From a candidate division FCPU426 bacterium (lineage in GTDB: Bacteria > Oederibacteriota > Muellerivitia > Muellerivitales > Muellerivitaceae): a stretch of 55,305 nt of DNA. The notes under the pieces were generated by a model, which saw only the letters and a program-made list of their open reading frames with translations, searched no databases and had not been told where the DNA came from. Below, in pieces: positions 1,756 through 21,681 of the stretch; within the stretch, counting starts at the first letter, position 1, and each line of letters starts with the position of its first letter. The stretch is from assembly GCA_003152075.1 (NCBI GenBank), contig PLZG01000030.1, forward strand, positions 1 through 55,305, written 5' to 3'. Position numbers and translations under genes: made by a program.

Positions 1756-2463
1756 TCACGGCTTGGTAATGGTGTTCGTCAACATCGTGACCTGGTCGAT
1801 TTGCGACAAAGCCCTGCCGGCCAGGACGGCGCCGGTATTAAACGTGATTTGGTTATGGGCCATGATGGTTCCCACCATTGACGCGGTCGTGTCAACGGAG
1901 CAGTAACTGCCGACCTGCCAATAAACGTTCGCGGCTTTAGCGCCCCCAGCCAGGATGACCTGGCGTGCGGACGACACGATAAGGGTGGAAGCGATCTGAA
2001 AGATAAAGACCCCGTTCGCGTTTCCCTGGGCGTCCAGGGTAAGGTCGCCCGACGAAATCGCGAGCCCGCTCGTCGATTTATAAAGGCCGGGATAATAAGT
2101 CTTTCCCCCTAAATTTCCGGCGACTAAGGCGGGTGAGGTTCGTCCCGCGGCGTCGTTATAAGCGATGGTCAAATCCGCTTGGGCTTGGGCCGCGGCGGTA
2201 TCAGTAACATGCGAAACACCTCCGCAACTCAACACCGGCCCTCCGCTCACCAGGGTTCCCGGGGATAATCCTAGGTCCCCGCAAATGGTGGTAGGTCCGC
2301 TGTTGGTGATCTGGGTATGGGCTAGAACCGCGAAACTCGCGGCTGACGCAAGATTGATGGGATCACGCACCGTCGCGGCAGGTCCCGTAGTGTTATTGGC
2401 GCATCCAACCATCCAAACGGCTGGAATCAATGCCATCACGAATAAACCTATAAGTTTTTTCAC
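1756..2463 (-). CDS. DUF3494 (ice-binding-like) lipoprotein, 235 aa
   Basis: A short lipoprotein signal (VKKLIGLFVMALIPAVWMVGC) is followed within about 20 residues by one DUF3494 domain reaching the C-terminus. Hallmarks are NLASAASFAVLAHTQITN, CGDLGLSPGT, SGDLTLDAQGN, FIFQI and NVYWQVG. The family is a beta-helix known from ice-binding proteins and cold-active adhesins; other members have no proven ligand. Cysteines in CGDLGL and LSCGG are shared by the paralogues here and may pair. I chose the GTG at 2463: AAGGAG sits 8 nt upstream, whereas the longer ATG at 2541 lies upstream of the predicted sigma-54 transcription start. It has no Thr-Pro stalk, unlike most of its paralogues. Confidence 0.9.
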   Translation of the reverse strand: MKKLIGLFVMALIPAVWMVGCANNTTGPAATVRDPINLASAASFAVLAHTQITNSGPTTICGDLGLSPGTLVSGGPVLSCGGVSHVTDTAAAQAQADLTIAYNDAAGRTSPALVAGNLGGKTYYPGLYKSTSGLAISSGDLTLDAQGNANGVFIFQIASTLIVSSARQVILAGGAKAANVYWQVGSYCSVDTTASMVGTIMAHNQITFNTGAVLAGRALSQIDQVTMLTNTITKP

Positions 2464-2530
2464 TTTCACTTCTCCTTTGAATCTTTTTGGAACGCCACAT
2501 CGGCTCATGGAATCCATGAGTGTTGTTAGA

Positions 2531-2544
2531 GCAAGTTCCATACC
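2531..2544 (-). promoter_or_regulatory. sigma-54 promoter P1
   Basis: The minus strand reads GGTATGGAACTTGCT: GG and GC are separated by exactly 10 nt, matching the -24/-12 consensus. The predicted start (about 2519) gives a leader of about 55 nt before the GTG at 2463. Confidence 0.85.
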
Positions 2545-5401: not shown

Positions 5402-6286
5402 TTACGGTTTGGTGATGGTATTGGACAACATCGTCACATTAGCATTCTCCGCCAAGGCCCTGCCTTCCAGCACGGCGCCCGTATTGATGGTGACCGCGGT
5501 GAAAGCCATGATGTTACCCTTGAACGAAACTCCCGTGCCCAGGGAGCAATAACCGGTCACTTGCCAAAAAATATTGGCGGCTTTCGCCCCATTGGCCAGG
5601 ATGACCTTGCGGTTGGTCGTTGCGTCAAGAACGCCGTTGACCTGGAAGATAAAGACGGCGTTCTGGTTTCCCTTGGCATCCAAGGTGAGGTCACCCGATG
5701 ACACCGAAAGATTGCCCATGTCCGTATAGAGACCGGGATAAAGGGTTTGGCCCCCGATATCCGCGTTGGCGGGCAAAAGGGTGCCCCCGGTGCGACTGGC
5801 GGCGTCGGTATAAGCCGTACCCAAATCCAGTTCAGCGGTATTCGCGGCGGCATTGGCTAAATCCGTGGTCCCTCCACAGGCTACCACGGGCGCTCCAGTG
5901 ACCGAAGTTCCCGGAAACAACCCAAGGCTTCCGCAAAGCGTGGTAAGTCCGGAGTTGGTGATCGCGGAATAAGCCAGGACCACGTAATTCGCGGCGGATC
6001 CAAGGTTAACCATGGCTTGAGTGCCTGGGGGCGCCGGGATGACTGTCGCGTTCGGCGTGGGCGTATTGGAATGATGCTTCCAATCACTATCGTTATCATG
6101 CTTCCAATCATTACCGTTTTTGTCCTTCCCTTTTGCATCGGCGTTTTTGTTGAAGCCGTCCTGGCCCCCGCCGTCATCTTCATTCACTTCGGTATTCCCA
6201 AATGAGGAATCGGCCCTTTCGGCCATGACCATCCCCGTGGCTGACAAAAACAATAAACCCATCACTACCGCTAATAAACTCTTCAT
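5402..6286 (-). CDS. secreted DUF3494 (ice-binding-like) protein with charged Asp/Lys/His linker, 294 aa
   Basis: A cleavable signal peptide (MKSLLAVVMGLLFLSATGMVMA) is followed by a hydrophilic segment of about 65 residues rich in Asp, Gly, Lys and Asn with a repeated DWKH motif. A short Pro-rich piece and a C-terminal DUF3494 domain follow (NLGSAANYVVLAYSAITN, CGSLGLFPGT, GDLTLDAKGNQNAVFIFQV, NIFWQVTGYC). The charged linker replaces the Thr-Pro stalk of the paralogues and could bind cations; that is inference. The ATG at 6286 has AAGGAGA at good spacing. Its own terminator follows, so it is monocistronic. DUF3494 domains are beta-helices known to bind ice or act in adhesion; no ligand can be assigned here. 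Confidence 0.9.
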   Translation of the reverse strand: MKSLLAVVMGLLFLSATGMVMAERADSSFGNTEVNEDDGGGQDGFNKNADAKGKDKNGNDWKHDNDSDWKHHSNTPTPNATVIPAPPGTQAMVNLGSAANYVVLAYSAITNSGLTTLCGSLGLFPGTSVTGAPVVACGGTTDLANAAANTAELDLGTAYTDAASRTGGTLLPANADIGGQTLYPGLYTDMGNLSVSSGDLTLDAKGNQNAVFIFQVNGVLDATTNRKVILANGAKAANIFWQVTGYCSLGTGVSFKGNIMAFTAVTINTGAVLEGRALAENANVTMLSNTITKP

Positions 6287-6958: not shown

Positions 6959-7819
6959 TTAAAAGATATTGCTCCACCAATGGGATTTGAATTGGGTTTG
7001 AGCGGCGGACAGGCATGCCCCAAAAACAATGATGCATCCGGAAAGGTAGATCCACATGAGAAGCGCCATCATGCCCCCAAAGGCGCCATACACCACGTTG
7101 AACTTGGCGAAGTTCCGGAGGTAAATCCCGAAAAAACTTTCGAGCACGCAAAGCAAGGCCGCCGCGGCCAGCGCCGCGGTCCACACTTCGGAAAACCGAG
7201 TCGGACGGCAGGGCGCTAGCCGGTAAAGAAGGCTCAGGCCAAAGAATAGGACAATCAACGGACCGATCAGGATCACGGCCCCATACATCCATGAGACAAA
7301 GTCGTATGTCGAAAGCAGCCAGTTCTTCGCCGCCCTGGCCATTACCGGCACCGCCAGGCCCAGAAGGATGGTTAATCCCGTGATTCCGAGCAAAAAAAGG
7401 TTTTTCAAGGGAAGGTGCCACCAGCCTTTGGCCTTCGTACCCCATGCCCGGTTGATCGCCCGAATCAACACACTAAAAAAATTGAATGCTCCCCAAAAAA
7501 ATACCAGCGGGGCGATGAAGGTAATTCCACCGCGCATCATGACCAGGTCGTTAATGGTGGCATATAGGTTCTGGTTCGTTCCGGCTTTGAAAGGCCCGTA
7601 ATTCTCGAAATATCCAATGACCTCGCGCGTCGCGCGGTCCCGGTCAAGGAAAAACGAGGCGATCGTCACGGCTAGGAGTACCAAGGGGAATAAGGAAAAG
7701 AACGCGTAATAGGCGAAGGAGGCCGCCCTTTGGGACCCGCCGATCCTAAAATAATTTTTCACCGCGAGGCCGAGGGCGCCCGGGGAGGTGGAGATTATCT
7801 TTGAGAGTTTTCCCGTCAT
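6959..7819 (-). CDS. YihY/BrkB-family inner-membrane protein
   Basis: This 286-residue protein has about six hydrophobic segments and the family pattern: N-terminal ASFAYYAFFSLFPLVLLAVTIASF, then GAFNFFSVLIRAINRAW, and near the C-terminus VYGAFGGMMALLMWIYLSGCIIVFGA. YihY/BrkB proteins (once misnamed ribonuclease BN) are polytopic inner-membrane proteins of uncertain transport role. It starts 3 nt after the stop of the oxidoreductase gene upstream, so the two are probably translationally coupled and it is the last gene of the P4 operon. Confidence 0.93.
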   Translation of the reverse strand: MTGKLSKIISTSPGALGLAVKNYFRIGGSQRAASFAYYAFFSLFPLVLLAVTIASFFLDRDRATREVIGYFENYGPFKAGTNQNLYATINDLVMMRGGITFIAPLVFFWGAFNFFSVLIRAINRAWGTKAKGWWHLPLKNLFLLGITGLTILLGLAVPVMARAAKNWLLSTYDFVSWMYGAVILIGPLIVLFFGLSLLYRLAPCRPTRFSEVWTAALAAAALLCVLESFFGIYLRNFAKFNVVYGAFGGMMALLMWIYLSGCIIVFGACLSAAQTQFKSHWWSNIF

Positions 7820-7822
7820 AAT

Positions 7823-9034
7823 TCAAACGGACAAAGGCAGGGGGATTAATTGTTTCAGGGCCTCGGCGTTATCAGGGGTGGCTTGTTCCGTGATTAATTT
7901 CCGGGCCCAATCTAATATTTTGGGCTGGTTCCAAAGAAGGACTCCCTTGACCTTCTGGTCCTCCAGGTAAGCCACCACGCCCTTACGGAAAGGGATTTCC
8001 CAAGCGGAAAGGGCCTTCATTTTAGAGTCCAGTTTGCCGACAGCCTCAAATCCCAGGTCGAACAAGTCCGAATAGAAATAAGGAAGGTAGACATAGGCCT
8101 GGGAACCGCCCGCCATGTTGATCCCGGCGCATTTCCCCTGGGCGCTCGCGTTATCCCAATGCTCCAAGCGGATGTCCTCGCCCAGTGCCTCGCAGGGAAA
8201 AAGCGCCAGGTCGCCTGCCGCGAAAATTTCATGCCGGGAAGTCCTTAAATACCTGTCAACAATCACGCCCTTGTCGATTTGGAGTCCCGCCGATTGCGCA
8301 AGCGCGGTTTCCGGATCGATCCCGATCCCGGCGATTACCCACCCCGCCTCCAATTCCTTGCGGCCTTTGGTGGTGACCTTCACTCGGTTTTCCAGGGAGG
8401 TGAAATGAGCCGGTTCATCTTCCGTGATAAAAGAGACGCCCTTATGCTTGTAGAAATCCGTAACAAAGGCCGAAAGGTCGGAAGGAAATATTTTCTCCAA
8501 CAATTTTTTTCCCTTAAAACACATCGTCACCTTTTTGCCCAAATGGGAAAGGCCGGCCGCCAATTCAGCCCCGATGAATCCCCCGCCTATAATGAGGAAA
8601 TCTTTCACGTTGGGGATCGCCTCCGTCAGTTCGAGATAATCCTTGGCGTTTCGGAAATAGTGGACCGACTTGCCCGCGCGAGGGAACTCGCGGGGACTAC
8701 CGCCCGTGGCGATTAATAATTTGGAATAACCAAAATGGTGCCCGGCCGCGTCGATAACTAAACGCTCTTCCGCGTTAATTTTTTTCGCGGTAGTTTTAAA
8801 ATGCAACTCCACCTTTTGATGGTGGTAATAGTTATCGTCAAAAATAAAGATATCATCGAAAACCTTTTTATCCCATAACAAATCCTTCGAAAGAGGCGGC
8901 CGGTTATAGGGCAAGATATCCTCGGCGCTCAACAGGCCGATACTTCCGGTCTTATCAATCTGCCGGATTCCCTCGATGGCCGAGGCTCCCGCTAGGCCCC
9001 CGCCGATGATTAGGTACTGATATTGGTGTTTCAT
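7823..9034 (-). CDS. FAD-dependent pyridine nucleotide-disulfide oxidoreductase
   Basis: This 403-residue flavoprotein has an N-terminal FAD Rossmann motif (LIIGGGLAGASA), a second dinucleotide fold for NAD(P)H near residue 150 (FLIIGGGFIGAELAAGL), an ATGGSPR segment, and the C-terminal FAD motif IFAAGDLALFP. There is no CxxC or CxxxxC redox pair, so it resembles ferredoxin/rubredoxin reductase or AIF-type NADH oxidoreductases rather than a disulfide reductase. The ATG at 9034 has GGGAAAG upstream. It lies 31 bp after the PorV-OmpA gene, in the P4 operon. It could reduce the rubredoxin-like protein near 22.6 kb; that link is speculative. Confidence 0.93.
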   Translation of the reverse strand: MKHQYQYLIIGGGLAGASAIEGIRQIDKTGSIGLLSAEDILPYNRPPLSKDLLWDKKVFDDIFIFDDNYYHHQKVELHFKTTAKKINAEERLVIDAAGHHFGYSKLLIATGGSPREFPRAGKSVHYFRNAKDYLELTEAIPNVKDFLIIGGGFIGAELAAGLSHLGKKVTMCFKGKKLLEKIFPSDLSAFVTDFYKHKGVSFITEDEPAHFTSLENRVKVTTKGRKELEAGWVIAGIGIDPETALAQSAGLQIDKGVIVDRYLRTSRHEIFAAGDLALFPCEALGEDIRLEHWDNASAQGKCAGINMAGGSQAYVYLPYFYSDLFDLGFEAVGKLDSKMKALSAWEIPFRKGVVAYLEDQKVKGVLLWNQPKILDWARKLITEQATPDNAEALKQLIPLPLSV

Positions 9035-9065
9035 AGCGGCTTTCCCTTTTACCCTTTTCCACGCT

Positions 9066-10421
9066 TTAGTCCCGACCGGGCCTCGGTTGGATGATCTTGA
9101 TTTCCACCCGGCGGTTGGGGGCCAATTGGGCCTCCGTCATACCGAGGACAATAGGGTCGTCATCGCCTCTTCCTAATGTAAGGACTTGCCAACCGGGTAC
9201 GCCGCGGGAAAGGAGATGAGTCCTCGTGGCCTCAGCCCGGGCCTCGGATAATCCTTGGTTGTGCGCTTCCGTCCCCTCTTCCGAGGCAAAACCCGACAAA
9301 ACAACGTGGTCCTGGGGACGGCTCAGCAGGTCGTCTCCCAATTCGTCCAACTCCTGGGTGAATTCCGGAGTCAGGTCGGCCTTGTCAAACGCGAATTGGA
9401 TATTCTTGTTAATTTTTTCCAATAACTTCACGACCGGACTCGGGAGTGGCGGCGGGGGAGCCGGTTTGTCCAATTTTATTAGGAGCGAAATCAGGTTGCT
9501 ATTTCCCACATATCCATTACTCATGAAGGCGTAATTCAGTTGGAACGCTCCAATATTGACCCCCGCGCCGAAGGTCAAGCCATTAACATCCGATCCCAAT
9601 TTATTTTCCGAAATCTGGTCTCCCGCTCGCAAGGCGAAGGTCCCCCGGTACCAATACTCGAAGCCCACCGAGCCGGCAATCGCCTTGGCTTGGCCCAGGG
9701 GGAAATCGGCGTCCACGGCCACGTTGAAGGCGTGCAGCCGGTTGACGATGGTGTCTGTTTTAAAAGCCAGGGCCGCTTTCAGGACCGTCGGCAGGTTCAT
9801 CCCTTGAAGCTGGGCCCCGACATTTTCAACAGCCACGCCTAAGGACAAATGCGGGATGATCCCATGCGCCATCAGCCCAGCGTCAACGCCCACTCCGCTT
9901 CCTATGGTACCCCCGATATTTTGTTGGAAATATTTGGCCGCCAACCCCACGTCTATTTTACGGCCCAAGGCTATGCCATAACCCAAACCCATATTGAATC
10001 CATTCGGGTTGAAGGTTCCGTTGGGAACCGGGGCGCCGTTTACAATCGTGTAAGAGTCAACGGTCCCCAAGCTCAAATAATCGAAACTCAAACCCAGCCC
10101 GCTGATCTCACCTAGCGGAATCCCGGCGGATAGATGCTCGACCGCCACGCCTTGAAACCAATTGTTATGGGTCAGCAAAAGCTGGGGACTGTCGATTTGG
10201 ACCAATCCGGCGGGGTTCAATTTAAAGGTGCTGATGTCTTCCCCCATGGCGCCGAAGGCGCCGCCCATACCCGCGGCACGGGCGCTATCGGGAAACTTGA
10301 GCCAGGGCGCGGCTTCCTGGGACGCGCTTTGGTTGGTTTGGTCGGCCCGAAGGGTCAGGGGTCCTAAGGCCATCAGGAAAAAGAAAGTGAGGCTGATTTT
10401 TCGAAAGGAGAAATTTTTCAT
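9066..10421 (-). CDS. PorV/PorQ-like outer-membrane barrel fused to an OmpA peptidoglycan-binding domain
   Basis: A signal peptide (MKNFSFRKISLTFFFLMALGPLTLRA) is followed by a PorV/PorQ (UPF0164-like) barrel opening (SARAAGMGGAFGAMGEDIS, then NPAGL). After a Pro-rich hinge (PAPPPPLPSP) comes an OmpA-like domain (IQFAFDKADLTPEF, HVVLSGFASEEGTEAHNQGLSEARAEA, ending NRRVEIKI). PorV-type barrels in Bacteroidota carry type IX secretion substrates; OmpA domains bind peptidoglycan. The ATG at 10421 overlaps the stop of the upstream DUF3494/C-terminal-domain gene (ATGA), so the two are translationally coupled. This start is more plausible than one 35 codons upstream, because the signal peptide begins here. 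The protein is 451 residues. Confidence 0.9.
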   Translation of the reverse strand: MKNFSFRKISLTFFFLMALGPLTLRADQTNQSASQEAAPWLKFPDSARAAGMGGAFGAMGEDISTFKLNPAGLVQIDSPQLLLTHNNWFQGVAVEHLSAGIPLGEISGLGLSFDYLSLGTVDSYTIVNGAPVPNGTFNPNGFNMGLGYGIALGRKIDVGLAAKYFQQNIGGTIGSGVGVDAGLMAHGIIPHLSLGVAVENVGAQLQGMNLPTVLKAALAFKTDTIVNRLHAFNVAVDADFPLGQAKAIAGSVGFEYWYRGTFALRAGDQISENKLGSDVNGLTFGAGVNIGAFQLNYAFMSNGYVGNSNLISLLIKLDKPAPPPPLPSPVVKLLEKINKNIQFAFDKADLTPEFTQELDELGDDLLSRPQDHVVLSGFASEEGTEAHNQGLSEARAEATRTHLLSRGVPGWQVLTLGRGDDDPIVLGMTEAQLAPNRRVEIKIIQPRPGRD

Positions 10422-11581
10422 GGTATCACCACCGCCTTGCGCGTAATTTGAATATTGGTCCCGTCCAAATAATTGATTTTGATTCGGACGAAATAAATTC
10501 CTGGGGCGACTCCTGTGGAGTCCCAATAGTGGTTACTGGTCCCGGTGAAAGAAAGGGTAGCGACACTTTCCCCGGCCACGTTGACGATTTCCCATTGGGT
10601 CGCCTTAGGCGGCTTATCAAAAAATAGGATGACTCGGTCACCCCGGTGGGCGGGGACAGGCGCCAACACCAATTGACCCGCTAATGAGCCCGATCCCGTG
10701 GAAGTGAAGACGGGCGCCCCCAGACCGCCGGATTGGCCTTGCAAAACAACCTGGCCGTTCCGGGCCAAAGCCTGTCCCGAGAAGCTCGCTCCAGTGAAAA
10801 AGTTGATGTCGGTGAGGGCCAGGATCGTTCCCTTGAAATCAGCGCCGGCGTTGATCGTGGCTGAACTGCCGATCTGCCAAAATACATTGGAAGCTTGGGC
10901 CCCGCCGATCAATATCACCTTCCGGCTGGTTGCGACGGTAAGGCCGGTTCCCGCCTGGAAAATGAAAACGGCGTTGGGACTGCCTTGGCCGTCCAGGGTC
11001 AGATCGCCCGTTGAGATAAGAAAGCCCGTGGCTGAGTTATAAACCCCCGGATAGAGGGTGATTCCCCCCAACTGGGGAAGTTGGGTGACGCCTAACCGAC
11101 CCGCCGCGTTGTTGTAAGCTGCGATCAAATCCACTTGGGCGGCCGCGGCGGCGCTATCGGCGATATGAAATATCCCTCCACAGCTCAACACGGGTCCTCC
11201 CGTCACGGCTGTTCCCGGGGATAAACCCAGGTCCCCGCAAAGTGTGGTGGAACCTGTGTTGGTGACCGTGGTACCGGCCAAAACCGCATAAGAAGCCGCC
11301 GATCCAAGCGGAACCGGCCCTTGCGCGGGTTGGGGCGTTGGGGTTTGGGTGATGGTAGGCGTTATCGTCACAGTGGGGCTATTGCTGGGAGTATTAGTGG
11401 GTGAATTAGTTGGAGTGTCGGTTGGGGTATTTGTCTGTGCCAACCCTTGCGACGGAAATATCCAAAGGGAACCCAACAGAAGCCCCAAAACAATAAAAGT
11501 CGAGCGAGAACAATTAGGCCAAGATGGCTTTATGACGCGGTATCGCGGGACGGAATTTATAAAAAATTTCTTTTTTTTCAT
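10418..11581 (-). CDS. secreted DUF3494 protein with Thr-Pro linker and type-A-like C-terminal domain, 387 aa
   Basis: The order is: signal segment (STFIVLGLLLGSLWIFPSQGLAQ), short Thr-Pro linker ([20 protein letters not shown]), DUF3494 domain (LGSAASYAVLAGTTVTN, CGDLGLSPGTAV, GDLTLDGQGSPNAVFIFQ, NVFWQIG), and a C-terminal FlgD/type-IX-like module (LVLAPVPAHRGDRVILFF, then GVAPGIYFVRIKI). The last module suggests surface delivery, and the gene is translationally coupled to the PorV-OmpA gene that follows. The ATG at 11581 has AAGGAG at good distance; an in-frame ATG 34 codons upstream overlaps the previous gene and is unlikely. The DUF3494 ligand is unknown. Confidence 0.9.
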   Translation of the reverse strand: MKKKKFFINSVPRYRVIKPSWPNCSRSTFIVLGLLLGSLWIFPSQGLAQTNTPTDTPTNSPTNTPSNSPTVTITPTITQTPTPQPAQGPVPLGSAASYAVLAGTTVTNTGSTTLCGDLGLSPGTAVTGGPVLSCGGIFHIADSAAAAAQVDLIAAYNNAAGRLGVTQLPQLGGITLYPGVYNSATGFLISTGDLTLDGQGSPNAVFIFQAGTGLTVATSRKVILIGGAQASNVFWQIGSSATINAGADFKGTILALTDINFFTGASFSGQALARNGQVVLQGQSGGLGAPVFTSTGSGSLAGQLVLAPVPAHRGDRVILFFDKPPKATQWEIVNVAGESVATLSFTGTSNHYWDSTGVAPGIYFVRIKINYLDGTNIQITRKAVVIP

Positions 11582-11613
11582 CGAAAACTCTCCTTTTGTT
11601 TTTACTACAGAAA

Positions 11614-12102
11614 TCATAAGTAGATATGCGCTCCCAATTCGCCATAGACGTTGAAAGTCGTGAGGCTTGCGGTGAAAAACCAAAGGGTCGGCACGGCTTG
11701 CAAATAAATATCCACCGGGAAATTTTTCTTATCAAAGATATAGCTAACCCCCACCGGAACCCGCCCCCCGAAAGCCGTGGGATTTTGGAGCAGCATGTTC
11801 CCGCCCAAGCCGATATAGATCGGCATCTGGTCGCCCATGTTGAAATTGTGCAAAAGGTAATCCAACTGCAGGATGACACTGCTGTTCCCGAACTTCACCG
11901 CGGGCTGAAAAGCCATTGTCCGGCCCACCCAAAACTTGCCCGAAACACCCCAGCTTCCGGGATCTCCCACCTCAAAGCCCAAGCCAAAATTTCCCCCGTC
12001 ATTGGTGGGGTGAGATTCCTCCGCCTTAGCGATAACCGTCTGCAAAAACAACCCGCCCGCCAAAATCGTCATTCCCAGAATCTTTTTAAATTTCAATGAC
12101 AT
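11614..12102 (-). CDS. small outer-membrane beta-barrel protein, 162 aa (paralogue of 24223-24726)
   Basis: A signal peptide (MSLKFKKILGMTILAGGLFLQTVIAKA) precedes alternating beta strands and a terminal aromatic/hydrophobic strand (VYGELGAHIYL), typical of small barrels. It shares GNFGLG, SGKxW, FQPAVKF, VILQLDYL, GVSYIFDKKNFPVD and VPTLWF with the protein at 24223-24726, so the two are paralogues. It is the first gene after promoter P4. The operon continues with a DUF3494 protein, PorV-OmpA, the oxidoreductase and the YihY protein, with gaps of 32, -4, 31 and 3 nt. I cannot assign a substrate. Confidence 0.85.
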   Translation of the reverse strand: MSLKFKKILGMTILAGGLFLQTVIAKAEESHPTNDGGNFGLGFEVGDPGSWGVSGKFWVGRTMAFQPAVKFGNSSVILQLDYLLHNFNMGDQMPIYIGLGGNMLLQNPTAFGGRVPVGVSYIFDKKNFPVDIYLQAVPTLWFFTASLTTFNVYGELGAHIYL

Positions 12103-12182
12103 ATTTGTCCTCTTTCATTACTGGCTGCGTTTTTTCAAACTCGTTTACCCGGGAATAATCATTTTTTTAAGAAGGGTTCAAA

Positions 12183-12223
12183 ATAAAGGGGCCCGCACCC
12201 AAGGAGAGACCTAGGTGCGGGCC
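12183..12223 (-). terminator. terminator-like hairpin inside the P4 leader
   Basis: Arms GGCCCGCACC and GGTGCGGGCC (12190-12222) form a strong GC-rich stem followed on the minus strand by CCTTTATTTTG. It lies between promoter P4 and the first gene of its operon, so it could be a transcription attenuator; it may instead end read-through from 12494. Confidence 0.6.
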
Positions 12224-12304
12224 ACAACGCCGAGGGCTTTTGGGACCCTGGCGCCACTTTGTTTTGACTGCAATCCACAGCTATTGATTGTGGTTCTTGG
12301 TAAA

Positions 12305-12318
12305 GCAAGTTACATACC
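12305..12318 (-). promoter_or_regulatory. sigma-54 promoter P4 (five-gene operon)
   Basis: The minus strand reads GGTATGTAACTTGCT with GG-N10-GC spacing. It would drive the genes from 12102 down to 6959. The leader is about 190 nt and contains the hairpin at 12190-12222. Confidence 0.83.
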
Positions 12319-12412
12319 ACGCGTTGGTTCCGCGGGACGCTCTCGGCATCTTTCGAAAATACCGCTTTAAAGTGATAAGGAAATTTTTTAGGGGATTTTC
12401 ATTCAACGGAAT

Positions 12413-12449
12413 TATCAAATTGATTGATGCCAAAATCTCATTTTGATTC
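12413..12449. promoter_or_regulatory. enhancer-like inverted repeat for P4
   Basis: Half-sites TATCAAATTGA (12413-12423) and TCATTTTGATTC (12438-12449) form a palindrome centred about 113 bp upstream of the P4 -24 element. Confidence 0.72.
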
Positions 12450-12493
12450 GCTTTAAGAGAGAGAGTTACCGCCGAGGTTTCAAAACAAGTTTG

Positions 12494-15019
12494 TTAGGGA
12501 TTGGTGATGTTATTGGTATCGAGCGTCACAGCGGCGACATGCGCCAAGGCTCGGCCCAGTAACGTGGCGCCAAGGTCAAAAGTGATTGACTGGTCGGCCA
12601 TGATTATTCCCACCATTGATGCGTCCGGCCCAATGGTGCAGCTGGTGCCCACCTGCCAAAAAACGTTGATGGCTTTCGCCGTCCCCGCCAAAATTACAGT
12701 TCCGGAGTTGATATTAAGAGCGCTTCCGACCTGGAAAATGAAGGCGGGATTTGGGTCTGTTCCGCCATCCAAGGTGACATTACCGTTTAACGCAAGCGTT
12801 CCGCCTGGCGAGGTTTGATAAAGGCCTGGGGAAAGTGTTAGGCCTGTCAAATCGCTTTCAACCGTTGTGGGGCCTGACCGGCTTAGGGCGTCATTATAAG
12901 CGGTGGTCAAATCCAATTGAGCTTGTGTGGCAGCGGAATTATTTACGTCCGAAACCCCACCACAACTCACAATTGGCGATCCTGTTACTGCGGTTCCCGG
13001 AGCCAACCCAAGACCTCCACAAAGTATGCTAGTTCCCGTGTTGGTAATGGTAGAGCCGGCCAAGACTACGTAATTCCCCGCTGTCCCGAGATTAATAATG
13101 GGGGTGTTGGTTGGAGTGTCTGTAGGGGTGTTAGTAGGCGTGTCGGTCGTTGTAACCGTTGGAGTATCCGTAGGTGAATCTGTCGGTGTATTAGAAGGTG
13201 TGCCGGTCGGGCTATCCGTCGGAGTACTAGTGGATGTATCAGTAGTTGTATTCGTTGGGGTACCAGTTGGCGTATCGGTTGGAGTAGTAGTTGGAGTATC
13301 CGTAAGTGTGTCAGTGGGCGAGTCAGCGGGTGTTTGAGTGGGTGTGTCCGTCAGCGTATTGGTTAAAGTGGCTGTAGGTGTGTTCGTCTGGGTGGCTGTT
13401 GGTGTATCTGTAGGCGTATTCGTCGGAGTTTCAGAAGCTGTGTTAGTTGGTTTGTCAGTGGGAGTATCGGTAAGTGTTCTCGTCGGGGTATTGGTTGGTG
13501 TCGCGGTGGGTGTATTGGTTAGTGTATCAGATGGAGTGTTCGTTAGGGTGTCAGAAGCTGTATTCGTCGGAGTTTCAGAAGATGTGTTAGTTGGTGTGTC
13601 GGTGGGAGTATCGGTCAGTGTGCTCGTCGGGGTATTGGTTGGTGTCGCGGTAGGTGTATTGGTTAGCGTATCAGATGGAGTGCTCGTTAAGGTATCAGAA
13701 GCTGTATTCGTCGGAGTATTAGAAGCTGTGTTAGTTGGTGTATCAGTGGGAGTATCGGTCAGTGTCCTCGTCGGGGTATTGGTTGGTGTCGCGGTGGGTG
13801 TATTGGTTAGCGTATCAGATGGAGTGTTCGTTAAGGTGTCAGAAGCTGTATTTGTCGGAGTTTCAGAAGAAGTGTTAGTTGGTGTTTCGGTTGGCGTATC
13901 GGTCAGTGTTCTCGTCGGGGTATTGGTTAGTGTCGCGGTAGGTGTATTAGTTGGCGTATTCGTCGGCGTGGTTGTTGGTGTATCGGTGGGCGTATTCATT
14001 GGTGTCGCAGTAGATGTATCAGTCAGGGTGTTAGTGGGTGTATCGGCTGGTGTATCCGTGGATGTGTCGGTCGGCGTATTCGTGGACGTTGCCGTTGGAG
14101 AATCGGTCGGAGTGTTTGTAAGCGAATCTGTTGGCGTGTTAGTCGGAGTATTTGTGGGTGTATTGGTTGGTGTTGGGGTAGGTGAGTCAGTGGGAGTGTT
14201 TGTTGGGGTATTGGAAGGTGTCTGAGTTGGCGTATTCGTAGAAGTAGCCGTTGATGTCGCGGTAGGTGTATCAGTCGGCGAATTTGTGCGCGAAGCAGTT
14301 GGAGTTTCGGTCGGAGTTTTGGTTAATGTATGAGTGGGAGTGTCAGTAAGCGTATTCGTTAGGGTGTTGGTAGGGGTTAGAGTGGGCGAATCCGTCGAAG
14401 TAGCGGTTGGTGTATTAGTAGGCGTTTTGGTAAGGGTAGGCGACGAAGTGTTCGTAGGAGTATCGGTCAGTGTATTCGTCGGTGTACTGGTGAGCGTGTT
14501 GGTTGGCGTTTGGGTGGAAGTGTTTGTTGATGTGTCCGTAGGGCTATTGGTCGACGTTGGCGTAGACGTGTTAGTCGGAGTTTCCGTGGACGTATTGGTT
14601 ATTGTGTTCATCGGCGAATTCGTGGCAGTGCTGGTGGGCGTGTTGGTAGGAGTTTTTGCGGGTGTATTAGTGGTCGTGTTAGTCCCCGTGGTCGTCACGG
14701 TCGAAGTTGGGGTCAAAGTTAGCGAAGGAGTTGGACTATTCGTAGGTGAGTTGGTAGGCGTGATCGTCGGGCTGTTCGTTGGAGCGTTTGTCGCTGTGAG
14801 GGTGGAGGTATAAGTCTGCATTGACAAGTGGGAACATGGTGTTAGGGTTGGATAAAATTTCAGTGAGTTTTTGATGGCGGAAATAATGCCGAAATTGAAA
14901 TCCGCGCGCAAATTTCCCGCGGACACAAAAAAGAATAAAATCGCCAAGGCGATAGAGCTTTGTTTTAACTTTTTCAGGATAAATTCTTTCTTAGAAGGGG
15001 TAAAAATACAGCCCCCCAT
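12494..15019 (-). CDS. secreted DUF3494 protein on a very long Thr-Pro repeat stalk, 841 aa
   Basis: A signal segment ([22 protein letters not shown]) is followed by about 570 residues of (T/S)xTP repeats (PTNTP, PTDTP, PTATP, SDTLT) and then a C-terminal DUF3494 domain ([58 protein letters not shown]). The likely design is a rigid, perhaps O-glycosylated stalk holding a beta-helix head off the cell. The stalk includes four copies of a 48-residue higher-order unit. The start is uncertain: the ATG at 15019 overlaps the upstream gene by 29 bp with a weak ribosome-binding site, and an alternative CTG lies at 14977. It shares promoter P5 with the barrel gene upstream. No membrane anchor or C-terminal sorting module is visible. 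Confidence 0.88.
13092..14820 (-). repeat. Thr-Pro coding repeat array with 144-bp higher-order units
   Basis: The DNA is a degenerate repeat whose basic coding unit is 4 residues (12 bp), often organised as 24 bp. Within it the marker CGTCGGGGTA recurs at 13481, 13625, 13769 and 13913, exactly 144 bp apart, so a 48-residue block was duplicated in tandem three times. Copies differ mostly by point changes. Confidence 0.9.
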
Positions 15020-15515
15020 TGAGAACCCATTGCAGATCGCCCAGGCTCACATTCCGGGAGTTGAGGCCGACAATTGGCATGGAAAAATCAAGCGATAGCG
15101 AAAACTCCCTGCTGAAAAAATATTCCGACCCGAATAAGGGCGCGAACTCATAACCGCTGCCGGAGACTCTAAAAGAGTCATCGGCGTTCAGGGCTGTATC
15201 AAAGGTGACATAACCTGCTTCCAATCCGGTAAACACGTTGAAATTACTTATCTTGGCGAAGCTCCAATAACCCCTCGCGGCGAAAACATTAATCCCTCCC
15301 CCGGTCGCGTACCTGAGTTCAGTGCCGATGTCCCTGTTGAAGTAATATTTCAAGCCAGCATATGGCCAACCTACTCCCACGCTTAATCCCGTGCGGATGT
15401 TGGAATAGTCTTCAGCTTCGGGAATGGGGGTTGGGACCACTTGGACTTTTTTGGCCCAAACAACGCAGGAATTAAGCAGAAGGAAAAAAACGATTAAACT
15501 AGCGAGTTTTCTCAC
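14991..15515 (-). CDS. outer-membrane beta-barrel protein, 174 aa
   Basis: A signal peptide ([21 protein letters not shown]) is followed by amphipathic strands ([46 protein letters not shown]) and an aromatic C-terminal strand ([10 protein letters not shown]). Together they indicate a small outer-membrane barrel. The start is the GTG at 15515, with GGGAGG upstream; the ATG at 15542 lacks such a site. It is the first gene after sigma-54 promoter P5 and overlaps or abuts the long-stalk DUF3494 gene, so the two are probably co-expressed. A role in anchoring or exporting the stalk protein is only positional inference. Confidence 0.8.
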
Positions 15516-15582
15516 CCTTATTCCTCCCTGATCCATTTTCAAACAACTTCAATTGCGCATGGATTTCAGACAATGGAATAAA

Positions 15583-15596
15583 GCAATGATCATGCC
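15583..15596 (-). promoter_or_regulatory. sigma-54 promoter P5
   Basis: The minus strand reads GGCATGATCATTGCT with GG-N10-GC spacing. The -12 box is ATTGCT rather than CTTGCT. It drives the barrel gene at 15515 and probably the long-stalk DUF3494 gene. Confidence 0.78.
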
Positions 15597-15702
15597 CCGA
15601 AACTTCGAGCGCTTTGAAAAATAAAACACTTCTAAAGTGAGGAAATAAGGGCTGAAAGAACTATCAAATAATTTTCGGTTTAATCCGGATTCCGATTTTT
15701 AC

Positions 15703-15735
15703 GATCAAAATGATGTTTTTTTCTCGTTTTGATCC
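15703..15735. promoter_or_regulatory. enhancer-like inverted repeat for P5
   Basis: Half-sites GATCAAAATGA (15703-15713) and TCGTTTTGATCC (15724-15735) form a palindrome centred about 123 bp upstream of the P5 -24 element. Confidence 0.75.
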
Positions 15736-15760
15736 TCTTGAATCAGCAAAACCCACTCCT

Positions 15761-18001
15761 TTATCGAAGAATCATCAGCTTAGCCGTTGCCTTTAATGTG
15801 GGCGTGGTAACGACGATGTAATAAACCCCATTGGATAACTGGCTTCCCCAGTCATCCATTAAGTCCATTTGGAAATCCGACGAGCTATTAAAGACCTGTA
15901 GGACTTTTACATGCTTCACGACTCGAAATGCTGTGGTGAACATCGTTATCTCAATCCTGCCTGCCGAAACATCAAAACCTAGATGAATCCGCACTGATCC
16001 ACAATTTGCCGGATTTGGATAGAGGACAACCAAGTGGCATGCCATCGGCATCGAGGTACTAGTGGGGGTGGGAGACAGCGTAGCTGTGCCGGTTGAAGTT
16101 GGGGATATTGTAGAAGTCGGCAAGGCTGTCGGGGTATGGCTTAGAGTGGACGTATAGGTAGGTGTATTCGTGTCTGTATTGGTTAATGTGTTCGTTGATG
16201 TATTTTGAGGCGTGTTAGAGGGTGTGTTAGTGGGTGAAGAGGTGGGTGTCCGAGTAGGCGTGGTAGTCGGTGAATTAGTGGGTGTTTGAGTGGGAGTTTT
16301 TGTCGGTGTAGCTGTTGTGGTATTGGTCTTAGTGCTAGTAGGTGTATCCGTTGGCGTGTTAGTTGGAGTATTGGTTGAACTCTTCGTGAGTGTTGCTGAA
16401 GGTGTGTCGGTAGGTGAATCAGAGGGTGTTTGAGTCGGCGTCTTCGTAGGCGAATCGGTGGGTGTGTTGGATGGTGTTTTCGTCGGCGTGTCCGTGAGAG
16501 TGTTAGTGGAAGTGTCCGTGGGGGTATTCGTCGGAGTTTCAGTAGGGGTATTGGTTGAAGTATTGGTGATTGTCGCTGAGGGTGTGTCAGTAGGTGAATC
16601 AGAAGGTGTCTGGGTAGGTGTGTCGGTAGGCGTGTTCGTCGGCGAATCAGTCGGGGTATTGCTGGAAGTATCGGTTGGACTATTCGTCGAAGTTTGTGTC
16701 GGAGTATTGGTTGAACTGCTGGTAGGTGTTGCTGAAGAGGTATCCGTAGGCGAGTCAGAGGGTGTCTGAGTTGGTGTATTGGTAGAAGTGTCAGTTGGAG
16801 AATTCGTCGGGGTTTGAGTCGGAGTATTGCTTGAAGTGTTTGTTGTTGTCGCTGAAAGTGTGTCCGTGGGCGAGTCAGAGGGTGTCTGAGTTGGCGTCTT
16901 GGTAGGCGTGTCTGTCGGTGTATTGGTGGAAGTGTCAGTTGGAGAATCCGTCGGGGTTTGAGTCGGAGTATTGCTTGAAGTGTTTGTTGTTGTCGCTGAA
17001 AGTGTGTCCGTGGGCGAGTCAGAGGGTGTCTGAGTTGGTGTCTTGGTAGGCGTGTCTGTCGGTGTGTCGGTGAAGGTGTTCGTAGGCGTATTCGTTGATG
17101 TCACCGTTTGTGTATCGGTTGGAGTATTAGTAGGCGTTTGAGTTGATGTGTCAGTCGGTGAATTAGTTGGTGTATCCGTTGGCGTGTCTGTCGGGGTATT
17201 CGTAGGCGTATTAGTGGGCGTATTCGCTGAGCTGACGGAATTGGTGATGATATTGGTATCAAGCGTCACCGCGCCAACCCGCGCCAAAGCGCGGCCTTCC
17301 AATAGGGCGCTGGTATCAAAGGTGATGGAGCCCTGGGCCATAATGATTCCCTTGAAGGCCGAAGAAACGCCAAGGGTGCAATCGCTGCCCACCTGCCAAA
17401 AAACGTTAGAGGCTTGGGCCCCGTTGATCAGGATGACCTGGCTGCTGGTCGACGTGGTAATGGCGGTCCCGACTTGGAAGATAAAGACCGCGGTCGAGTC
17501 TCCCTGAGCGTCCAGGGTAAGGGTGGTTGATATCCCAAGCGCGCTGGATATTTGATAGAGACCGGGAATAAGGGTTACGCCTCCCAAATCAGCGGGTTCC
17601 AAGATGGGGCTTAGCCTTCCCGCGGCGTCGTTATAGGCTAGGGTTAAGTCTCCTTGAGCGGTTGCCGCGGGGGCATTGCCGACGTTGGAAACAGCGCTGC
17701 AGAGGGAACTAAACATGATAGGGTTGGGTCCGCCCACAGAGGTCCCTGTCCATAACCCAAGATCACCGCAAATGGTGGTAGCTCCGGTGTTGGTGATTGT
17801 GGAACCGGCAAGGACCGCGTAAGTTCCGGCGGAACCAAGATTAACCGTCGGGGGACTTGCAGCCAAGGCTCGCGATGGGAAAATACAAAGGGAAATGAAA
17901 AGAAGTCCCAAAATGGATAAGTCGTGGCGCCGGCCGGCGCCAGCCAAGCTCCCGCTAGTCATCAAGTATCCGTACTGGTGTTTCAAAGTGGTTTTCCTCA
18001 T
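15761..18001 (-). CDS. secreted DUF3494 protein with long Thr-Pro stalk and type-A-like C-terminal domain, 746 aa
   Basis: The order is: hydrophobic export segment ([21 protein letters not shown]), DUF3494 domain ([48 protein letters not shown]), about 380 residues of Thr/Pro/Ser repeats, and a C-terminal FlgD/type-IX-like module ([17 protein letters not shown], then [13 protein letters not shown]). Here the DUF3494 head is N-terminal and the stalk leads to the C-terminal module, the reverse of the 12494-15019 protein. Before the export segment the frame encodes [16 protein letters not shown], which resembles the start of the oxidoreductase at 9034. The start is unsure: the ATG at 18001 has AAAGG directly adjacent. 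It follows the lipoprotein gene at 18114 by 112 bp and probably shares promoter P6. Confidence 0.86.
16050..17235 (-). repeat. Thr-Pro coding repeat array with 144- and 120-bp spacings
   Basis: The marker CGAGTCAGAG recurs at 16751, 16871 and 17015, spaced 120 and 144 bp, multiples of 24 bp (8 residues). The longer block, of 48 residues, has the same length as the higher-order unit in the stalk at 13481-13913. Confidence 0.85.
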
Positions 18002-18113
18002 CCTTTGACTGGAGCGAAGCCTTGCTCGACTGTTGGATTCCATAAGATTAAGCGGACCAAATCAGGAACCATTCCAAACCTGGTCCTCTTAAATAACTTA
18101 AAACCTAAATCCC

Positions 18114-19076
18114 TTAGGGTGTGGGCTTGGTGATGGTATTGGTTAATAAAGTGACGTCACCGTTCGACGCTAAAGCCCGGCCTAACAGGACCGCGCCCGT
18201 ATTAAAGGTGACCGAGGTATAAGCCATAATGTTTCCAACCATTGACACGGTCGTATCAAGGGAGCAGTAACCCGACACCGCCCAAAAAACATTACCGGAT
18301 TGCGCTCCCCCCGCCAGAATGATCTGCCGGCCGGGCCCGACGATAAGATTGCCACCCGTCTTAACCTGAAAAATAAAGACGGCATTAGGGTTTCCCAGGG
18401 CGTCAAGGGTAAGATCGGCCATGGAAATATTGAGATCACTGTTGATGGTATAGACACCTGGATAAAGGGTTTGGCCTCCAATATCACCGCCGGGCGCTAA
18501 AGTGGCGCCTGTTGGCCGTCCCATGGCGTCCGTATAGGCCGTGCCCAAGTCTTGTTTGGCGGTATTCGCCGTGCCGTCACCCACGTCAATTGCCCCTCCG
18601 CAACTCTCCACGATCGCCGGTGATCCGGTAATGGAAGTCTGTCCATCCGGGTATACCCCGTAACCGCCACAAGTCGTACTGGGTCCGCTGTTGGATATCC
18701 CGGTATAAGACAAGATCACGTAATTCGCGGCTGACCCAAGGTTAACCGGCAGTTGCGCCGTTTGAGGCGTCGCGGTTGCGGTGGGCGTCGCCGTTTGGGT
18801 GGGAGTTCCAGTGTCCGTCGGGGTTGCCGATGGGGTTAGGGTCCCGGTGGGCGTCAAGGTGGCCGTAAAGGTGGGCGTTGGCGACAGGGTTGCTGTTCGC
18901 GTCATGGTTAATGTCTTGGTCAAGGTAACTGTCAAGGTTGCCGTTCGCGTCACGGTTGATGTTGAAGTGGGGCGGCTCCCTGGAAAGGTTGGCACCGCTA
19001 TCTCCCTGCTACACCCCGCCATTAGGGCGGCCGAAAGCAACGTCATCACGGTTAATCGGCTGTTTATCTTTTTCAT
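18114..19076 (-). CDS. DUF3494 lipoprotein with Thr-Pro linker, 320 aa
   Basis: A lipoprotein signal with lipobox (MKKINSRLTVMTLLSAALMAGC) is followed by about 85 residues of Thr-rich linker (TSTSTVTRTATLTVTLTKT) and a C-terminal DUF3494 domain (NLGSAANYVILSYTGISN, CGGYGVYPDGQ, ADLTLDALGNPNAVFIFQV, NVFWAVSGYC). Lipidation would anchor it in the outer membrane, with the linker holding the beta-helix away. The ATG at 19076 has AGGAGA at good spacing and lies about 50 nt after the predicted P6 start. DUF3494 is best known from ice-binding proteins; in an eight-member family like this, adhesion or matrix binding is equally possible. The stalked protein at 15761 follows in the same direction. Confidence 0.9.
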   Translation of the reverse strand: MKKINSRLTVMTLLSAALMAGCSREIAVPTFPGSRPTSTSTVTRTATLTVTLTKTLTMTRTATLSPTPTFTATLTPTGTLTPSATPTDTGTPTQTATPTATATPQTAQLPVNLGSAANYVILSYTGISNSGPSTTCGGYGVYPDGQTSITGSPAIVESCGGAIDVGDGTANTAKQDLGTAYTDAMGRPTGATLAPGGDIGGQTLYPGVYTINSDLNISMADLTLDALGNPNAVFIFQVKTGGNLIVGPGRQIILAGGAQSGNVFWAVSGYCSLDTTVSMVGNIMAYTSVTFNTGAVLLGRALASNGDVTLLTNTITKPTP

Positions 19077-19140
19077 TTTTGCGTCTCCTAAACTTTTTTG
19101 GGAATTCGCGATTGCTTATGTACTTAGGAGAATAGTTAGA

Positions 19141-19154
19141 GCAAGGAACATGCC
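19141..19154 (-). promoter_or_regulatory. sigma-54 promoter P6
   Basis: The minus strand reads GGCATGTTCCTTGCT, with GG-N10-GC spacing and a near-consensus -24 box. The start would be near 19129, upstream of the ATG at 19076. Confidence 0.88.
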
Positions 19155-19258
19155 CCGAAGCTTGAAGGGTCCGGGGGCACTCGACCCCTAGCAAACGAGG
19201 AAATGCGCGCCCATGTGCCGCTCAAAATTTTCCGAATCACCTCGGCTCCCGGTCTTAC

Positions 19259-19293
19259 GATCAAAATGAGGCTCTAAATCCTCGTTTTGATTC
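19259..19293. promoter_or_regulatory. enhancer-like inverted repeat for P6
   Basis: GATCAAAATGA (19259-19269) and TCGTTTTGATTC (19282-19293) form a 35-bp palindrome centred about 122 bp upstream of the P6 -24 element. Gap 19077-19430 otherwise holds only P6 and a terminator. Confidence 0.8.
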
Positions 19294-19355
19294 TTTTGGG
19301 GTGAATCAATCCTTTAAAGAGAACTGAGGAAAGTTGTCGGAAAGGCCCTTTGGAC

Positions 19356-19386
19356 AAAAAAAAGCCCTCCCGGATCGGGAGGGCTT
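19356..19386 (-). terminator. rho-independent terminator of the DUF3494 gene at 19431
   Basis: A perfect 11-bp stem (AAGCCCTCCCG 19362-19372 with CGGGAGGGCTT 19376-19386) runs on the minus strand into a T tract (19356-19363). An almost identical terminator is at 20702-20732. Confidence 0.93.
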
Positions 19387-19430
19387 CAAAACTCGAACTT
19401 TTTTTCTACTCAACTATTAAAACCTAATCT

Positions 19431-20417
19431 TTACGGAAGGGTGATCGTATTGTTATCCATCGCGACGTAAGAGGAACTCGACATAGCCCGTCCATTCATT
19501 ACGGCGAGGTTACCCAACGCGACATAGCCATAGCACATGATGGTTCCATTGAAGGTCGAAGTCGCGCCAAGAGAGGCATAGGCGCCACCCACCTGCCAAA
19601 ACACGTTTTTGGCTTGCGCGCCCCCTATGAGAAGGACGTTGCTGGAAACCGCGGTGGTAAGGAGACCCGCGGTCTGGAAGATAAAGACGCCACCGTTTGT
19701 GAATCCCGTGCCGTCAAGGGTGACCGTACCCGTTATGTCAAGTCCGCTAGTTGAACTCCAGACACCGGGTGTAACCGTTGTGGCACCCAAACCCGCGCCG
19801 ATTACGCTGAATGGCCTTGAAGAAGCGTCGAGATAAGCAGCACTCAAAGCTCCTTGAGCGGTTTGCGCGGTACTGTCGGTTATATGCTGGATTCCTCCGC
19901 AATTCATCACATACCCACCACCCGCGGAAGTCCCTGACCATAACCCAAGATCCCCACAAAGCGTACTAGAAGGAACATTGGTGAGAGCGGAGAAGCCCAA
20001 GACCACAAAATTAGCGGCGCCGCCCATATCAACTGTCGTCACACCGGGCGTGCCCGCTGCGGTCACTGTCGGAGTTGCCGACGGGGTGTTTGTAGGCGTT
20101 CCCGTGGGTGTTGAAGTCGCGGTGTTCGTGATGGAAGGCGTCGGAGTAGAAGTCGCTGTATCCGTTCTAGTGTTGGCTGGCGAATTCGTGGGCGTTGCCG
20201 TTGACGTTTTAGTTGGAGAATTGCTGGGCGTTGCCGTGGGTGACAAGGTCGCGGTTCGCGTCGCGGTGGTTGTTCCCGTCGCCGTTAAAGTTGGTGTGAT
20301 GGTGGATGTGGCCGTTGCCATCATGGGACATGATGGGGTCTTGGTGCTCGAGCATCCAGCCATAAATGCGGCCGAAAGCAAGGTCATCGCTATTAAACTA
20401 CCCATAAGCTTTTTCAC
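19431..20417 (-). CDS. DUF3494 lipoprotein with Thr-Pro linker, divergent domain, 328 aa
   Basis: A lipobox signal ([21 protein letters not shown]) precedes a Thr/Ser/Pro linker of about 90 residues and a DUF3494 domain ([64 protein letters not shown]). The domain departs from its neighbours: no cysteine in the late strand (AYASLG in place of GYCSLD) and the turn [20 protein letters not shown]. The start is the GTG at 20417, with AAGGAG upstream. It has its own promoter (P7) and terminator and is therefore monocistronic. Outer-membrane anchoring is expected; the ligand is unknown. Confidence 0.9.
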
Positions 20418-20484
20418 TTTTACAGCTCCTTAGAAAAAATTTTGAATCCCATAACTACTCATGAAACTCAGGTGAGGGGTTAAA

Positions 20485-20498
20485 GCAAGTAACATGCC
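20485..20498 (-). promoter_or_regulatory. sigma-54 promoter P7
   Basis: The minus strand reads GGCATGTTACTTGCT with GG-N10-GC spacing, about 70 nt upstream of the GTG at 20417. Confidence 0.87.
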
Positions 20499-20602
20499 GC
20501 AGCAAGACAAGATGAGTCCGTTCTGTCTTTTCCGCCAGCCTGGAAAAATATCGTTATCTTACCGTTTAAAAAATTTTGATTCGGACCTTATCACGAAACG
20601 TC

Positions 20603-20637
20603 GATCAAAATGAGTGTCCGACCCCTCGATTTGATTC
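20603..20637. promoter_or_regulatory. enhancer-like inverted repeat for P7
   Basis: GATCAAAATGA (20603-20613) and TCGATTTGATTC (20626-20637) form a 35-bp palindrome centred about 122 bp upstream of the P7 -24 element. Gap 20418-20778 holds P7, this site and a terminator. Confidence 0.8.
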
Positions 20638-20701
20638 CTTTGGATGGAATGAATCATTAAAGCAAACTAAAAAATTGAGGAAAAAATTTTTTGTCCCATA
20701 A

Positions 20702-20732
20702 AGAAAAAGCCCTCCCGGAATCGGGAGGGCTT
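20702..20732 (-). terminator. rho-independent terminator of the DUF3494 gene at 20779
   Basis: The stem AAGCCCTCCCG (20707-20717) with CGGGAGGGCTT (20722-20732) is followed on the minus strand by TTTTTCTT. Confidence 0.92.
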
Positions 20733-20778
20733 CAAGATTCAAGCTTTTTAAATTGATCAACCCTGGAGACTCAATCCC

Positions 20779-21681
20779 TTAGGGAGCGGGGATGGTGATG
20801 CTATTGCCTAATAAAGTAACGTCGCCATTTTCCGCCAAGGCCCGGCCAAGCAATACGGCGCCTGTATTCAGGGTTACTGAGGTATAGGCCATGATGTTGC
20901 CCGCGAATGAGACCGTGGTATCAAGAGCGCCATAACCGGTCACTTGCCAAAAAACGTGGGAAGCTTTTGTTCCGCCGGCCAGGATGATCTGGCGGCCGGG
21001 GCCTACGACAAGGTTGCCGTTCACTTGAAAAATAAAAACCGCGTTCACGTTACCTTGGGCGTCCAGGGTAACATCGCTGGAGGATATTAAAAGATCGCTA
21101 CTTTCCGTGTAAAGACCGGGATAAAAGGTCAGTCCTCCAATATCACCACCGGGAGCTAAAATGGCTCCGCCTGGCCGTCCCGCGGCGTCCGTATAGGCCG
21201 TACCCAAGTCCAATTTAGCCGTGTTCGCTGCGCCATCAGCGACGTCTGTAACACCCCCGCAAGTAATCACAATTCCTCCATCCACCGAGGTCAGTGGATA
21301 TAACCCAAGACTTCCGCAAAGCGTGGAAGCTCCCGAGTTGGTGATCGCGGAGTAAGCAAGGGCCGCGTAATTGGAAGCAGTTCCAAGATTAACCATGGCT
21401 TGACCCGTTTGGGGGGTCGGGGTCATTGATGGCGTTGGGGAGAGTGTGGGACTTAAGGTTCCCGTTGGTGTTATGGTTGGCGTCGAGGTAATGGTCCGCG
21501 TCGGGGTAGCCGTTCGCGTCGGGGTGGATGACCGTGTCGTGGTGGGTGTTCGGGTAATGGTCTTCGTCGCCGTTGGAGTCAAGTTCGCCGCCGGGCTCGA
21601 GGGATTTGGACTGCTACATCCGCCCAAATAGGCGCCTAAAAGCAATGTCATCCCGATTAAACTTCCAATTATTTTTTTCAC
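20779..21681 (-). CDS. DUF3494 lipoprotein with Thr-Pro linker, 300 aa
   Basis: A lipobox signal (KKIIGSLIGMTLLLGAYLGGC) is followed by a Thr/Arg/Pro linker (about residues 30-95) and a DUF3494 domain (NLGTASNYAALAYSAITN, CGSLGLYPLTSVDGG, SDVTLDAQGNVNAVFIFQV, HVFWQVTGYGALD). It is closest in layout to the 18114 and 5402 proteins (TAKLDLGTAYTDAAGRPGG, LAPGGDIGG). The start is the GTG at 21681, with AGGAGA upstream. It has its own promoter (P8) and terminator. An outer-membrane-anchored beta-helix adhesin or ice-binding-like protein is the best description; no ligand is known. Confidence 0.9.
   Translation of the reverse strand: MKKIIGSLIGMTLLLGAYLGGCSSPNPSSPAANLTPTATKTITRTPTTTRSSTPTRTATPTRTITSTPTITPTGTLSPTLSPTPSMTPTPQTGQAMVNLGTASNYAALAYSAITNSGASTLCGSLGLYPLTSVDGGIVITCGGVTDVADGAANTAKLDLGTAYTDAAGRPGGAILAPGGDIGGLTFYPGLYTESSDLLISSSDVTLDAQGNVNAVFIFQVNGNLVVGPGRQIILAGGTKASHVFWQVTGYGALDTTVSFAGNIMAYTSVTLNTGAVLLGRALAENGDVTLLGNSITIPAP

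Follow-up and report, generated by a model that had tools for sequence, protein, structure and literature searches.

Two neighbouring stalk genes

The window analysed here is the 55,305-nucleotide stretch of contig PLZG01000030.1 (positions 1 to 55,305) from a candidate division FCPU426 bacterium (assembly GCA_003152075.1). It contains two neighbouring minus-strand genes, gene 1 and gene 2, that encode an Ice_binding (DUF3494) domain joined to a long stalk of TPTx repeats (Thr-Pro-Thr-any residue), and in both stalks blocks of DNA have been duplicated in tandem. Of the gene extents given by the initial annotation, 12494-15019 stands for gene 1, while the second open reading frame (ORF) starts at 18043, position 18001 being an internal ATG. 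The two genes are composed as follows, with lengths in amino acids (aa), profile matches given with their expect values (E) and signal peptides assigned by eye:

12494..15019, minus strand: gene 1 (841 aa), with a signal peptide, a 573-aa TPTx stalk and a C-terminal Ice_binding (DUF3494) domain (ORF, translation and profile)
13097..14815, minus strand: gene 1 stalk, residues 69-641 (composition pattern)
12497..13105, minus strand: gene 1 Ice_binding domain, residues 652-839 (PF11999, E 2.9e-45; alignment)
15761..18043, minus strand: gene 2 (760 aa), with a signal peptide, an Ice_binding domain, a stalk and a C-terminal beta-sandwich (ORF, translation and profile)
17240..17857, minus strand: gene 2 Ice_binding domain (PF11999, E 1.5e-55; AlphaFold2 model, mean predicted local distance difference test (pLDDT) 90.1)
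16046..17224, minus strand: gene 2 stalk, residues 274-666, about 393 aa (composition pattern; the segment returned by our stalk detector is 16052-17245)
15764..16054, minus strand: gene 2 C-terminal seven-strand beta-sandwich (Por_Secre_tail-like, FlgD Ig-like fold)

Both stalks are strikingly regular. Threonine or serine (T/S) occupies 279 of 287 alternate positions in gene 1 (about 97%) and 193 of 196 in gene 2, and proline is confined almost entirely to one of the four phases (89 of 93 and 64 of 68 prolines, respectively), from which it follows that the stalk unit is 4 residues, or 12 base pairs (bp). On the plus strand, the long ORFs at 13338-14225 and 14334-14813, with their many G, V and S residues, mirror these stalk codons and are best left out of the gene annotation. 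At ∼0.3 nm per residue of extended chain, the upper limit of reach would be some 170 nm for the 573-residue stalk of gene 1 and 120 nm for the 393-residue stalk of gene 2, with about 15 nm gained per 48-residue block.

The heads of genes 1 and 2 score 154.9 and 188.5 bits against PF11999 (curated cut-off 28.7). The model of the gene 2 head is a beta-solenoid whose closest solved structure is 6eio, an ice-binding protein from an Antarctic consortium (46% identity, template-modelling score 0.92, E 1.4e-17), and sequence search concurs (E 5.7e-49). The C-terminal domain of gene 2 is modelled with seven strands (pLDDT 76.7), its best PDB matches being FlgD (E 2.3e-4). Lipoboxes were sought by simple pattern matching rather than with a signal-peptide predictor, and in these two genes gave an MGGC at the start of gene 1, ahead of the hydrophobic stretch, and an ISLC in gene 2, both judged to be chance matches.

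Block duplications in a 12-bp register

The initial annotation proposed that the stalks of two separate proteins grow by tandem 144-bp blocks, in multiples of 24 bp. That stalks in two separate proteins have been lengthened by tandem block duplication is borne out by sequence markers, by an excess of identity at lag 144 and by the arrays found with Tandem Repeats Finder. The gene 1 marker CGTCGGGGTATTGGTT occurs exactly at 13481, 13625, 13769 and 13913 (steps of 144, 144 and 144 bp) and the gene 2 marker CGAGTCAGAGGGTGTCTGAGTTGG exactly at 16751, 16871 and 17015 (steps of 120 and 144 bp), each being otherwise unique in the window. The arrays and duplications detected by Tandem Repeats Finder are:

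13416..13959, minus strand: gene 1 tandem array, 144 bp (48 residues) x3.8, 91% matches
16773..17079, minus strand: gene 2 duplication of 144 bp, x2.1, 95% matches, longest exact repeat 90 bp
16649..16912, minus strand: gene 2 duplication of 120 bp, x2.2, 82% matches
16507..16813, minus strand: gene 2 duplication of 156 bp, x2.0, 75% matches, a multiple of 12 and not of 24

Because a TPTx stalk already has a 12-bp periodicity, the null for identity at a given lag was built from 1000 permutations of 12-bp monomers for each stalk. Against it, DNA identity at lag 144 is 0.667 in gene 1 (null 0.583, z 9.8) and 0.635 in gene 2 (null 0.559, z 6.6), in both cases higher than in any permutation; at lags 288 and 432 identity is elevated in the gene 1 stalk only, and only about a third of that stalk lies inside the 144-bp array. 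The 144-bp copies differ from each other at 5-22% of DNA positions, and the longest exact repeat is 44 bp in gene 1 and 90 bp in gene 2. The ratio of non-synonymous to synonymous differences (pN/pS) is 0.31-0.51 in all 7 copy pairs, which suggests that the TPTx protein pattern was kept after duplication.

That these copies are products of the assembler, which would have collapsed or multiplied repeats, is very improbable. The genome is in 114 contigs, and nine stalk segments of the fetched loci by raw count (L095, L109, L140, L111, L113, L115, L124, L125 and L127) adjoin a contig end, so that stalk arrays may indeed break assemblies; however, the copies bear their own substitutions, common read lengths exceed the 44- and 90-bp exact repeats, and similar blocks are found in a congener that was assembled separately.

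Queried with gene 2, this genome yields 154 matches and the one congener compared 96, mostly via the stalk and some via the head or the C-terminal domain. The stalk catalogue covers part of these matches: besides the window it draws on 60 fetched stretches, 40 of this genome (G000) and 20 of the congener (G001), and it comprises 85 stalk segments (4 in the window, 52 in G000 and 29 in G001) spread over 74 ORFs, of which this genome accounts for 50. Within it we found 25 non-overlapping block duplications, in 21 segments, compared to 1.05 per shuffled set. As the stalk detector is bound to one phase of the alternation and disfavours lags of 3 or 9 modulo 12, we repeated the count at all lags over entire ORFs, applying a T+S filter of at least 0.45. 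This gave 26 non-overlapping duplications with lags of 84-624 bp, all 26 multiples of 3; 21 are multiples of 12 and the other five multiples of 6.

Modulo 24, 10 of the 21 multiples of 12 give 0 and 11 give 12, and this, together with the varied block sizes, means that neither 24 nor 144 bp is the unit. The proposed 24-bp register thus fails, since 11 of the 21 lags are not multiples of 24 and gene 2 itself carries a 156-bp duplication, and so does the 144-bp unit, given the range of lags across stalks. Both were rejected in favour of a register of 12 bp (4 residues) in which the number of units is free.

What the two stalks share at 144 bp is then probably a coincidence: their best 144-bp match to each other has an identity of 0.729, which is within the range for unrelated stalks (0.639-0.736 and 0.618-0.729 against other stalks for the two, respectively). 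A functional 48-residue module of both proteins, or gene conversion between them, would account for a period present in the stalks of two neighbouring genes, but that same identity and the many other block lengths of the other stalks leave this explanation with very little probability. No near-identical copy of the 144-bp block was found elsewhere in the genome outside the array, where identity above 75% is limited to stretches of 32-80 bp; stalk growth is therefore local, and a transfer of the block between genes was rejected, there being neither such a copy nor a special likeness between the two stalks. In another pair of stalk genes, residues 131-357 of L143 and 218-445 of L098 are 93.9% identical while their flanking parts are near 56%, hinting at a recent exchange between the two.

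Related proteins, export and stalk length between congeners

Genes 1 and 2 belong to a cluster of eight Ice_binding (DUF3494) genes, which span 20 kb (1756-21681), share the minus strand and all match far above the Pfam cut-off. They make up 8 of the 15 matches in the genome, and no Ice_binding (PF11999) match was found in the one congener genome compared. The other six are:

1756..2541, minus strand: Ice_binding lipoprotein, stalkless (profile, lipobox-like motif)
5402..6286, minus strand: Ice_binding protein, stalkless (profile)
10418..11683, minus strand: Ice_binding protein with a short stalk and a C-terminal sorting domain (TIGR04183, 29.4 bits, cut-off 23)
18114..19076, minus strand: Ice_binding lipoprotein with a short N-terminal stalk (profile, lipobox-like motif)
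19431..20417, minus strand: Ice_binding lipoprotein with a short N-terminal stalk (profile, lipobox-like motif)
20779..21681, minus strand: Ice_binding lipoprotein with a short N-terminal stalk (profile, lipobox-like motif)

The stalk stands on one side of the head or the other, depending on the protein. By pattern match, a lipobox-like motif is found in most of the listed proteins with an N-terminal stalk, and none that is credible in those with a C-terminal one. A T/S-alternating stalk is present in 13 of 25 ORFs from relatives in the phylum (9 N-terminal and 4 C-terminal) and in 2 of 44 ORFs from named loci of other taxa, where the ORF counts (17 for this genome, 25 for relatives and 44 for named loci) include overlapping pieces of the same genes. 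The simplest account of these arrangements would be that the stalk sits between anchor and head. Further afield, a Dehalococcoidia bin (L084) and a Thaumarchaeota bin (L076) each encode an Ice_binding domain behind a T/S-rich stalk built from other repeat units. The product of 2917-5205, inside the cluster, is a secreted protein that has DUF11 and FlgD-like domains, a C-terminal sorting domain and a short stretch of TPTx.

Candidates for an export route are also encoded here. The window contains

9066..10526, minus strand: PorV/PorQ family outer-membrane protein with an OmpA-like end (NF033709, 153 bits, cut-off 90)

which is likely to be a partner of C-terminal sorting domains, of which the genome has 37 by TIGR04183 matches. 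The PorU model is matched by its C-terminal part alone (positions 962-1095). A type IX-like export route is plausible, though not proven, from the PorV/PorQ gene, the 37 sorting-domain matches and a SprA-like ORF of the genome scoring under its cut-off; a literature search on type IX secretion in candidate phyla returned no paper.

Stalk length can be compared between congeners in four orthologue pairs that match at both ends, with 68-77% identity in the heads and 49-68% in the C-terminal domains. These were picked from 13 reciprocal best pairs, the other nine matching at one end only or weakly, and the comparison is one between species, with one genome for each. The number of residues between the two matching ends is 453/417, 263/629, 417/233 and 481/468, and the stalk segments measure 451/414, 250/430, 414/220 and 282/463 aa, so that stalk length differs in all four pairs.

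These differences bear on the possibility that the arrays are old and now fixed, having been duplicated once and then remained stable, in which case length would be no working variable and the stalk a passive linker. The divergence of 5-22% between copies, by which no pair is brand-new, and the 64 of 85 stalk segments without a recognisable duplication agree with this. Against it speak the differing stalk lengths in 4 of 4 orthologue pairs, the 144-bp pair that is 95% identical with an exact stretch of 90 bp, and the many block sizes across genes; although we take it seriously, we lean away from it.

Proposed spacer model and relation to known systems

We consider it probable that local in-register duplication lengthens a disordered TPTx spacer, with an anchor at one end and an ice-binding-like head at the other. 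The stalk would be an unstructured (Thr-Pro-Thr-x)n chain, coded by a 12-bp minisatellite, that holds the DUF3494 head, a putative binder of ice or surfaces, off the cell. In gene 2 it would join the N-terminal head to the C-terminal beta-sandwich, probably a type IX-like sorting or anchoring domain, and in the lipoprotein relatives an N-terminal lipid anchor to the C-terminal head; gene 1 has the lipoprotein domain order, if without a convincing lipobox. Misaligned 12-bp units may pair in register, through replication slippage or unequal recombination, and so duplicate a block of several units, after which selection would keep T/S at alternate positions and proline at each fourth residue, even as the copies drift apart down to the background level of similarity.

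Several observations weigh against this account: 1) a duplication is recognisable in just 21 of the 85 stalk segments; 2) in two of the orthologue pairs (L096/L122 and L139/L112) an extra non-stalk segment explains part of the length difference; 3) the stalk DNA of orthologues is no more alike than that of unrelated stalks, so that a conserved orthologous stalk sequence was rejected, and at the divergence of the congeners drift under a composition constraint explains this dissimilarity as well as fast turnover does; 4) the C-terminal domain of gene 2 reaches 18.8 bits against PF18962 (Por_Secre_tail), below the cut-off of 27, has no match to TIGR04183 and finds its closest likeness in FlgD; 5) the SprA-like ORF of the genome stays below the cut-off of TIGR04189 despite an E of 3.2e-31, and the SprA_N profile has no match, a search that had no positive control and hence says nothing; and 6) the evidence comes from one genome of this species, length variation among present-day strains being a possibility.

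A different function for the same parts is also conceivable, namely that the stalk itself does the work, as a mucin-like O-glycosylated coat or matrix, and that the Ice_binding domain serves adhesion in general, as a fold with no relation to ice. Such stalks occur in about 50 ORFs of this genome, most of which lack the Ice_binding domain (it has 15 matches genome-wide), and DUF3494 is described, in the available text of one report, from ice-binding and other substrate-binding proteins (PMC12337378), which we count in favour of it. Set against this is the gene 2 head, 46% identical to a solved ice-binding protein, and we regard this alternative as rather unlikely.

For a spacer whose length is set by duplication, the nearest concept is that of the Periscope proteins, in which repeat number alters stalk length and for which homologous recombination has been proposed (PMC8201768, PMC9704523). 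According to the available text of these papers, they too are surface proteins made up of a functional head, an anchor and a stalk encoded by repeated DNA, and the high-identity tandem repeats by which they are recognised are also found here (91% and 95% matches, 144-bp units). In contrast, their stalks are described there as folded domains of more than 50 residues, which long reads have shown to vary between strains, whereas here the unit is a 4-residue TPTx in variable blocks, including blocks of 48 residues, and probably unfolded, to judge from its composition. Nearest in composition is DsA1/PTRP of Cutibacterium (Propionibacterium) acnes, a surface adhesin whose proline-threonine tandem repeats lie close to its anchor and whose mass is reported to differ between strains via the number of PT repeats (PMC5527093); unlike the proteins studied here, it has a head of its own, an LPXTG anchor and a short repeat, and the available text describes no higher-order blocks.

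Ice-binding heads on long tethers are already known, from the sources as available: the long repeat region of Marinomonas primoryensis MpIBP keeps its ice-binding domain off the cell (PMC5014055), and tethered DUF3494 proteins, including the Shewanella frigidimarina IBP, share the head domain and have repeated tether or adhesion domains (PMC9957290). The tethers of the latter are folded (Ig-like and thrombospondin type 3), and the available text names no TPTx stalk (PMC9957290); nor did our literature search, within the text available, find a report of TPTx stalks on DUF3494 proteins, the threonine/proline queries bringing up mainly unrelated work.

Across the genome, ∼50 or more secreted TPTx-stalk proteins may have been lengthened independently at 12-bp steps, with the reach of each head set gene by gene, in a Periscope-like manner without folded stalk domains and with lipid or C-terminal anchoring; we put this forward only tentatively. 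If true, the tuning of surface reach by repeats would go beyond the folded stalk domains known from well-studied bacteria and apply to an unstructured TPTx stalk, one that is carried by dozens of proteins in a single little-studied lineage and that is combined with ice-binding-like heads in either domain order. For long-read data, a 12-bp register predicts stalk lengths that would differ in steps of 4, seldom 2, residues.

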